DNA from: Sulfuricurvum sp.
GTDB lineage: Bacteria > Campylobacterota > Campylobacteria > Campylobacterales > Sulfurimonadaceae
DNA: 64,000 nucleotides
Direction of reading: 5' to 3'
Assembly (NCBI GenBank): GCA_028710885.1
Contig: JAQTTG010000007.1
Location: 57,509-121,508 of the forward strand
Shown here: piece after piece, positions 29,138-39,907 of the stretch
Layout of the letters: each line of letters starts with the position of its first letter
Numbering within the stretch: the first letter of the stretch is position 1
The notes under the pieces: model-generated
Seen by the model: the letters and a program-made list of their open reading frames with translations, nothing else
Database searches by the model: none
Told to the model about the DNA's origin: nothing
Position numbers and translations under genes: made by a program

Positions 29138-29242
29138 TTGTGTTCCTAACGCAATCGGAATCAAATCCCGATTACTACGCTAACGCTGTGTTTGCCTCGG
29201 CGGCAAGCCCACGTACGCTTGCGTACTTGTTTAATTTTGATA

Positions 29243-36949: not shown

Positions 36950-38551
36950 ATGTCAAAAGTATTGATTATCGGCAGCGGTGGTGCAGGATTGGTGAGTGCG
37001 CTTTCCGCTCATGAGAGCGGTGCAGAGGTGATTGTTGCCTCAAAAACACTCCCTACGCGATCTCAAACCTCGATGGCGCAGGGGGGGATGAATGCGGTTT
37101 TAGGAAGTGATGATTCTATCGCAAATCATATCACTGATACCCTCAACTCCTCTGCTGGATTGGGAGATGAAAACCGAATCACATTTATGTGTGAAAAAGC
37201 GCCGGAAGCGATAGCATGGTGTAACTACATCGGATTGCCGTTTAGTCGTGACAAAGAGGGTCAAATCGCACGTAGACGTTTGGGTGGAGCAAGCGCACCA
37301 CGAGCGTGTTATGCCCAAGACTATACGGGGCTTAAACTGCTTCATACCCTCTATGATCAGTGCCTAAAAGCGGGGGTAACATTTAAGAATGAACGGTTTT
37401 TGCTTAATCTTATCGTCGATGAGGAGGCTAAGCGCGTTCTTGGGGCAACATTTTTGCATATCGAAACGGGTGAGGTCGAAGAAATCCGTGCCGATGCAGT
37501 GATCTTGGCAACCGGAGGATACGGCAATCTCTACGGCAAACACTCTACCAACTCAGTTCAAGCGAGCGGTGATGGTCTTGCGGCGGCAGTACGTGCAGGA
37601 GCAAAGCTTGCTGATATGGAATTTATTCAGTTCCACCCGACAGCACTGAAGGGGTCATCGATTTTGATTTCCGAGAGTGCTCGCGGTGCGGGTGGATATC
37701 TGCTCAATGCCCATCATGAACGTTTTACCGATGAGCTAGCTCCACGCGATGTGGTGGCTCGTGCTATTCACGACGAGATGGCTAAAAGTGGCGCTGTTTT
37801 TCTCGATATTCGTCATTTGGGAGAAGAATTTATCAACCATGAACTCCCTCAAGAGCGAAAGTTAGCACAGATTTATGAGGAGATCGATCCGGTACATGAA
37901 CTCATCCCGATCAAGCCCTCTGCCCACTACAGCATGGGGGGGATCGAAGTGAATGCTGAGTGTATGAGCAGCGTAAAGGGACTCTTTGCTGTTGGTGAAT
38001 GCGCTAACCACAAAATACATGGCGCAAACCGTTTGGGCGGTAACTCACTGTTAGAACTCGTCGTGTACGGGCGTGAATGCGGTAAAAATGCGACTGAATA
38101 CGGTACTAAAAATCCTGCTCCATCGGCTGAATCGATGCAATTAGCCAAAGATACGAATTTTATTCGGGGGGTGATGTATTTCACGAACCAAATCGATTTT
38201 TATCAAAAACAGGAGATGCTCGCTAACATCTTTTATAACAACGTCGGATTAGTTCGTGATGATATGGGATTAAAAGCAGTTTTGGGGGCAATCCGCCAAA
38301 TGCAGAAAGAGTTACCGTTTATGGGGCCGCGTGATAAATCCAAGATTTGTAATACCAACCTCGTTGAATTCATCGAGTTTGGAAACAAGGTTGAGTTAGC
38401 GGAGATCATCGTTGTGAGTGCGATTAGCCGTGTTGAGAGCCGAGGGGCACATTACCGTATCGATGCTCCTGTACGTAATGATCGAATGTTTGGAGCCCAC
38501 ACAATCACATGGAAAGAGGATGGAGTGCTATGTGCCGATTTTATGAAATAA
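36950..38551 (+). CDS. Fumarate reductase/succinate dehydrogenase-like flavoprotein subunit
   Basis: GSGGAGLVSALSA, SMAQGGMNAVLG, HPTALKGSSILISESARGAGGYL, SPHYSMGGI-like AHYSMGGIEV, ANRLGGNSLLELVVYG. Confidence 0.92.
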   Translation: MSKVLIIGSGGAGLVSALSAHESGAEVIVASKTLPTRSQTSMAQGGMNAVLGSDDSIANHITDTLNSSAGLGDENRITFMCEKAPEAIAWCNYIGLPFSRDKEGQIARRRLGGASAPRACYAQDYTGLKLLHTLYDQCLKAGVTFKNERFLLNLIVDEEAKRVLGATFLHIETGEVEEIRADAVILATGGYGNLYGKHSTNSVQASGDGLAAAVRAGAKLADMEFIQFHPTALKGSSILISESARGAGGYLLNAHHERFTDELAPRDVVARAIHDEMAKSGAVFLDIRHLGEEFINHELPQERKLAQIYEEIDPVHELIPIKPSAHYSMGGIEVNAECMSSVKGLFAVGECANHKIHGANRLGGNSLLELVVYGRECGKNATEYGTKNPAPSAESMQLAKDTNFIRGVMYFTNQIDFYQKQEMLANIFYNNVGLVRDDMGLKAVLGAIRQMQKELPFMGPRDKSKICNTNLVEFIEFGNKVELAEIIVVSAISRVESRGAHYRIDAPVRNDRMFGAHTITWKEDGVLCADFMK

Positions 38552-38658
38552 AATGTACCGGTGATGATAAAGCATGGGAAGAGGAATCTGAACAGGAGGG
38601 GTGCTGTGAAGATCCTTACGATGATGACGAAGAGTACGAGAAAGAGTGGTGTGATTGA
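38530..38658 (+). CDS. Unlisted 42-aa acidic cysteine-rich small protein
   Basis: ATG at 38530 inside the flavoprotein gene end; MCRFYEIKCTGDDKAWEEESEQEGCCEDPYDDDEEYEKEWCD*; TGATG overlap with downstream Fe-S gene. Confidence 0.7.
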   Translation: MCRFYEIKCTGDDKAWEEESEQEGCCEDPYDDDEEYEKEWCD

Positions 38659-39344
38659 TGGAAATATCTATTTTACGCGGTGAAGAAGCTCAGAGTTATA
38701 ACGTCGAGTTAGAAAATGTCACACTTTTAACGGTGCTTAATCACATTAAAACCAAAATCGATCCGACACTCACCTACTCTCACGGGTGCCGAAGCGGCGT
38801 ATGCGGGAGCTGTGCCGTTCGGGTGAATGGGCGCGAAGCGCTGATGTGTGAATACAAACCTAGCGATGGCGATCTCATCGAGCCGATTCGCAACACTCGG
38901 GTGATTCGGGATTTAGTGGTTGATTCCGGTATGGTTGAGCGTTTTAATTGTAGTGCCAATACATGGAGCGAAGGTTCAGATAAGGGGAATGTTAGTGAAG
39001 AAGATGCGAGCCGTATTGAGACGCAAAGCGACTGTATCCTTTGCACATCGTGTTACAGTGCCTGTCCCGTCTATGCGCTAAATCCTAACTTTATTGGTCC
39101 GTTTGCTCTTACCCGTGTTTGGCGGTATGTGAATGATACGCGCGAAGAGAGTAGTAATGCAAAGCTTGCCGCCGTACAAACAAACGGTATTTGGGATTGT
39201 ACTCTCTGTGGCGAATGTGTTCCTGTATGCCCGCAAAATATCGCTCCAAAACAAGACATTACGATGCTGAGAATGAAAAGTGTGATGATGGGTTATCAAG
39301 ATCCTAATGCTGCTATGGCATTTGGAGGCGGGCTTAATTTTTAA
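38658..39344 (+). CDS. Fumarate reductase/succinate dehydrogenase-like iron-sulfur subunit
   Basis: 2Fe-2S CRSGVCGSC..C; CILCTSCYSACP and CTLCGECVPVCP clusters. Confidence 0.93.
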   Translation: MEISILRGEEAQSYNVELENVTLLTVLNHIKTKIDPTLTYSHGCRSGVCGSCAVRVNGREALMCEYKPSDGDLIEPIRNTRVIRDLVVDSGMVERFNCSANTWSEGSDKGNVSEEDASRIETQSDCILCTSCYSACPVYALNPNFIGPFALTRVWRYVNDTREESSNAKLAAVQTNGIWDCTLCGECVPVCPQNIAPKQDITMLRMKSVMMGYQDPNAAMAFGGGLNF

Positions 39345-39409: not shown

Positions 39410-39907
39410 ATGGCATCTGAACACTCTCTCGATATCTCCGCAAAAATCGATCTTCAAGCGTTTAAAGACGCGATTGCCCAAGCTGAAAAAGAGGTTATCG
39501 GCCGTTACGATTTCAAGGGGATCACCTATGAAATCAATTACCGTGAAAAAGAAAAACAGCTTATTCTCCTCGCTTCCAGCGATAATAAACTTGATGCACT
39601 TAAAGATATTGTCATCGGAAGGCTCATTAAGCGGGGGCTTTCATCAAAAGCATTAGATGAGCTCAAAACGGAAGATGCGAGCGGTGGAAGTCGAAAAGCG
39701 ACCTATAAGGTGGTTGATACTATCGAAGCTAAAGAGGCAAAGAAAATCATGGCTGAGATTAAAAATCTCAAAACCAAAGCCTCTGCACAAATCGAGGGGG
39801 AGCATATTCGCGTTAAATCCAAACAGATCGATGAGCTTCAAAAGATCATGGCACATATTAAGGGCATGGAGTGGGATGCACCGCTCGTGTTTGATAATTT
39901 CCGGTAA
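39410..39907 (+). CDS. YajQ family nucleotide-binding protein
   Basis: SLDISAKIDLQAFKDAI..EVIGRYDFKG; C-terminal VRVKSKQIDELQ.. Confidence 0.95.
   Translation: MASEHSLDISAKIDLQAFKDAIAQAEKEVIGRYDFKGITYEINYREKEKQLILLASSDNKLDALKDIVIGRLIKRGLSSKALDELKTEDASGGSRKATYKVVDTIEAKEAKKIMAEIKNLKTKASAQIEGEHIRVKSKQIDELQKIMAHIKGMEWDAPLVFDNFR

Follow-up and report, generated by a model that had tools for sequence, protein, structure and literature searches.

The closest described system is the two-subunit, cytoplasmic FrdAB of Campylobacterota with the reverse TCA cycle, which in the relevant passage of PMC4674564 consists of a flavoprotein and an iron-sulfur (Fe-S) subunit, has no anchor, and occurs as a second copy beside the three-subunit enzyme. 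The same paper, citing Sievert et al. 2008, gives the proposal that a two-subunit enzyme like this one, probably located in the cytoplasm, works in the reverse TCA cycle, and the passage describes only two genes for it. A second relative is SdhABE, the 8-methylmenaquinol:fumarate reductase (MFR) of Wolinella and Campylobacter, with its cysteine-rich SdhE anchor. The SdhE/YgfY-SdhAF2 flavinylation factors are small soluble proteins acting on SdhA or FrdA.

The DNA analysed here, the window, is a stretch of 64,000 nucleotides from Sulfuricurvum sp. (contig JAQTTG010000007.1). In place of the two genes described for FrdAB the window carries three, the third being a small gene, here called X, between the other two. 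The features are:

36950..38551, + strand: flavoprotein subunit, FrdA/SdhA superfamily, 533 aa, Gln replacing the FAD-linking His
38509..38529, + strand: possible in-frame N-terminal extension of X from an alternative ATG at 38509, entirely inside the flavoprotein coding sequence
38516..38525, + strand: ribosome-binding-like sequence GAGGATGGAG, upstream of the X ATG and within the flavoprotein gene
38530..38658, + strand: X, small acidic protein gene, 42 aa, with conserved frame, ATG start and C-terminal E[RK]EWCD
38658..39344, + strand: iron-sulfur subunit, FrdB/SdhB family, 228 aa, with [2Fe-2S] and two [4Fe-4S]-type motifs (the second being CTLCGECVPVCP)
39410..39907, + strand: yajQ-family gene, next after the Fe-S gene, no membrane-anchor gene lying between

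The host enzyme and its small gene

The flavoprotein has orthologs at 78–91% identity in the named genome collection, mostly in Sulfuricurvum, and scores below every listed curated cut-off for named equivalogs. Alignment with solved SdhA chains placed its PTRSQT opposite PTRSHT, so that the FAD-linking His is missing. The Fe-S subunit possesses CTLCGECVPVCP at the position of CTFVGYCSEVCP in E. coli FrdB; this is the predicted pattern of a second [4Fe-4S] cluster in place of the [3Fe-4S] cluster, an exchange described for E-type enzymes (PMC2680327). Taken with the same paper, the replacement of the FAD-linking His by Gln would fit reduction rather than succinate oxidation. Both the loss of this His and the second [4Fe-4S] motif are shared with the SdhA and SdhB of SdhABE, but the SdhE anchor is missing at the X locus, where no CCG-type SdhE gene was found, copies being present elsewhere in the genome. 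The MFR equivalog models gave 430 bits against a cut-off of 1100 and 140 bits against a cut-off of 600. A separate SdhABE-like operon, encoding a flavoprotein, an Fe-S subunit and a protein with two CCG domains, exists in the window's own genome (G000:C29; L148:4232-7824).

The original prediction that neither a membrane anchor nor an SdhE/MfrE gene follows the Fe-S gene was borne out: yajQ comes next, and an SdhE-like CCG gene lies elsewhere in the genome, in the operon at G000:C29. Relatives share a similar gene order, with a 2-hydroxyacid dehydrogenase gene upstream and yajQ downstream. The locus thus holds FrdA- and FrdB-like genes without an adjoining anchor gene, and the enzyme is, as predicted from its genes, of the soluble two-subunit fumarate reductase type.

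Direct reading of the window placed the ATG of X at 38530 and its TGA at 38656–38658, as originally predicted, and the translation is MCRFYEIKCTGDDKAWEEESEQEGCCEDPYDDDEEYEKEWCD (42 aa), in which 18 Asp or Glu and 5 Cys (residues 2, 9, 25, 26 and 41) were counted, again in agreement. Both predicted overlaps were seen: the flavoprotein stop lies at 38549–38551, so that the 5' end of X overlaps that gene by 22 nt, and the Fe-S ATG lies at 38658–38660, a single A being common to it and to the TGA of X (TGATG). A start at 38509 would make X 49 aa long; in relatives that codon is ATG, GTG or TTG. Just 5' of the X ATG is the purine-rich stretch AAAGAGGATGGAGTGCT, and a purine-rich stretch occurs there throughout the Sulfuricurvum loci. 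AlphaFold, run on X with 22 sequences, predicted no fold: the mean pLDDT was 61, with the highest values at the C-terminus. A PDB profile search with X gave no match.

Conservation and distribution of X

Thirty-eight Sulfuricurvum species were compared, with one locus each. The ATG at 38530 is kept in 36 of them, and the same number possess an ATG-initiated ORF in the same frame ending in WCD. The exceptions are L017, in which X has been lost and ATGA joins the flavoprotein gene to the Fe-S gene by direct overlap, and L035, in which X is short and eroded. In 30 of the 36 species the last base of the X stop is the first base of the Fe-S ATG; the distance from flavoprotein stop to Fe-S ATG takes 16 values among these coupled species, from 58 to 214 nt, all of them 1 modulo 3. 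Six species have extra DNA 3' of the X stop, parting X from the Fe-S gene. The suggestion that the overlaps couple translation in a three-gene unit agrees with the start and stop overlaps themselves and with the base shared by X stop and Fe-S ATG in 30 of the 38 species.

Outside the overlap with the flavoprotein gene, change in X is mostly synonymous. The synonymous sites are saturated and Jukes-Cantor dN/dS is unusable, and selection is therefore given as pN/pS, a ratio of raw proportions; this was 0.18 for the eight-codon tail (26 distinct tails) and 0.16 for the CCED block. The near-universal signature of X is its C-terminus, E[RK]E[WYM]CD, in which Cys (TGT/TGC) and Asp (GAT/GAC) are invariant with both synonymous codons in use, and Arg is specified by both CGN and AGR. 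W..CCED is present in many species, though not all, and CCED itself in 13 of the 38. The middle of the protein is hypervariable, and the shortest versions have 26 aa. The expectation that frame and residue pattern would be conserved in orthologous loci was upheld by the frame (36/38) and the C-terminal tail, with the qualification that Cys2 and Cys9 are not conserved and that CCED occurs in 13/38; the description of X as Cys-rich was overstated, being true across species only of the near-universal C-terminal Cys.

Four loci (L187, L201, L229 and L232) retain the tail even though X ends there without overlapping the Fe-S start codon, which argues that X is more than a ribosome-binding site. An ORF retained in the same frame by 36 of the 38 Sulfuricurvum species, and present in further genera, is beyond chance. 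As judged from codon usage across the loci, the frame of X, the C-terminus of its peptide and, in a subset, W..CCED are under protein-level selection.

A profile of X (A2) gave 16 matches among 398 Campylobacteria genomes, in four genera, and all 16 sit where the flavoprotein match ends, at the flavoprotein/Fe-S junction. A second profile gave 47 matches among 228 genomes of the family, in five genera; four newly matched places were checked, and all have the flavoprotein gene on one side and the Fe-S gene on the other. Genera g26, g27, g79 and g81 have homologs at this junction, and among the named carriers are MAGs with the labels Arcobacter LH_M16 and NORP14, Sulfurimonas MAG313 and Sulfurimonadaceae BB10. 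Comparison of these loci establishes X as a selected in-frame small protein locked to the flavoprotein/Fe-S gene pair. Most orthologous loci in Sulfurimonas are without X, and on the flavoprotein tree its presence and absence require at least 8 changes, which the tree does not assign to gain or loss. Given these Sulfurimonas loci and the loss in L017, the enzyme can evidently do without X, which is not essential to it.

Genus g4 (Hydrogenimonas-like, of another family) includes two genomes with a longer coiled-coil gene at this junction, carrying PWEEE..GGNCCED near its end. This gene, of 59–67 aa in L144 and L145, lies between the flavoprotein and Fe-S genes; in the g4-like relatives L146, L235 and L243 there is a coil without CCED. 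The E[RK]EWCD tail was not found in the g4 form, and its searches against Pfam and NCBIfam gave only weak, below-cut-off coiled-coil matches, which were set aside. From their sequences, common descent of the g4 gene and X is likely, although the shared CCED could be convergent.

Possible roles of the X protein

The reading we favour, at a rough probability of 0.55, is that X is a genuine gene, the middle cistron of an frdA-like/X/frdB-like unit, whose product would act as an accessory or assembly subunit of FrdAB. Ribosomes ending the flavoprotein would start X and those ending X would start the Fe-S subunit via TGATG, and coupling through both overlaps would mean that the three products are made together. 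The product would be a mostly disordered acidic peptide, as the low pLDDT suggests, binding the soluble FrdAB pair; most likely it would hold or protect the Fe-S subunit during cluster insertion, or help to dock the electron donor, and it would act by the conserved C-terminal -E-R/K-E-W/Y-C-D, together with CCED in the versions that have this pair. Many related bacteria retain X at this position with its frame intact, so the enzyme probably has an overlooked small partner. Of the earlier proposal of a small-protein factor for a soluble complex, the part that stood is a real gene tied to an anchor-less flavoprotein/Fe-S pair; the assembly, metal-handling and interaction roles which it listed cannot be told apart by sequence.

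Searches of Pfam and NCBIfam with X gave no family match, those to the known small assembly-factor families of Pfam included, which sets X apart from SdhE/YgfY-SdhAF2. A flavinylation role of the SdhE/YgfY type is unlikely for X, since the target His is absent from this flavoprotein (PTRSQT). Literature searches for a small protein in this operon found none. X appears to represent a small-protein family that is new, although the enzyme it accompanies is of a known kind. We advance only tentatively the fuller proposal that proteins like X, small, acidic and disordered, make up a family not yet described and serve the soluble fumarate reductase of CO2 fixation as a dedicated third subunit, with the C-terminal E-R-E-W/Y-C-D and CCED inserting or guarding the Fe-S clusters or docking the electron donor. 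A conserved gene missed by annotation, and apparently co-translated with its neighbours, offers a concrete handle on the electron donor and the assembly of the soluble fumarate reductase, the one proposed for the reverse TCA cycle in common sulfur bacteria.

The strongest rival is that X is mainly a translational coupler, whose translation carries ribosomes across from the end of the flavoprotein gene to the beginning of the Fe-S gene, with a peptide that does little. Its frame and TGATG overlap are indeed kept over very different spacer lengths, its middle is hypervariable and tolerant of repeat insertions, and where X is lost (L017) the direct ATGA overlap substitutes for it. We nevertheless consider a pure coupler unlikely: it leaves unexplained the conserved amino acids of X, whose tail and CCED are maintained with free third positions, and the persistence of the tail in the four loci without a stop/start overlap. 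The longer coiled-coil gene of g4, with its PWEEE..GGNCCED, would also allow X to be what is left of a larger coiled-coil accessory subunit that has been shrinking and is partly degenerate in Sulfuricurvum. The scattered presence of X on the flavoprotein tree and its loss or erosion in L017 and L035 agree with this, but strong purifying selection on the C-terminal tail, the lack of that tail in g4 and the possible convergence of CCED make it decidedly improbable.

Polycysteine leader ORFs are described as attenuators in mycobacteria, and X has a CC pair and a near-terminal Cys directly before a Cys-rich Fe-S gene. Were X such a cysteine-sensing leader peptide, a shortage of cysteine would delay ribosomes at its Cys codons and reduce synthesis of the Fe-S subunit. 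No terminator was found between the genes at the junction, RNA folding there is no better than that of shuffles (z 0.02) and most Sulfuricurvum species lack the Cys pair, all of which makes an attenuator unlikely; with the conserved acidic and aromatic residues of X also left unexplained, a leader peptide is very hard to credit, and it was rejected. Lastly, X could be a spurious ORF, the by-product of the flavoprotein overlap and a purine-rich ribosome-binding region, given that overlap with the flavoprotein frame restricts its N-terminal MxRFY and that GA-rich DNA naturally encodes Asp and Glu. Codon-level selection in the non-overlapping part, lengths which preserve the frame, and the L229 homolog, which begins outside the flavoprotein gene, largely refute this reading, and next to nothing is left of its probability.

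Dispersed repeats in and around X

Dispersed repeats with many copies in Sulfuricurvum genomes lie inside X in several species (e.g. L007, L012, L031 and L033), each time with the frame and tail intact. X thus presents a case in which clear selection is confined to a short C-terminal tail and the protein persists despite in-frame invasion of its middle by repeats. The window itself carries, at 29154–29213 on the - strand, a copy of a dispersed repeat that is multicopy in Sulfuricurvum genomes; members of this family, and of others, are inserted in or beside X in relatives. At L170:1990-2112, and also in L174, L178 and L036, a repeat has entered between X and the Fe-S gene, and its end carries a second junction resembling GGTGTGA(C/T)TGATG, which gives the stop/start junction the appearance of having been duplicated by an insertion.
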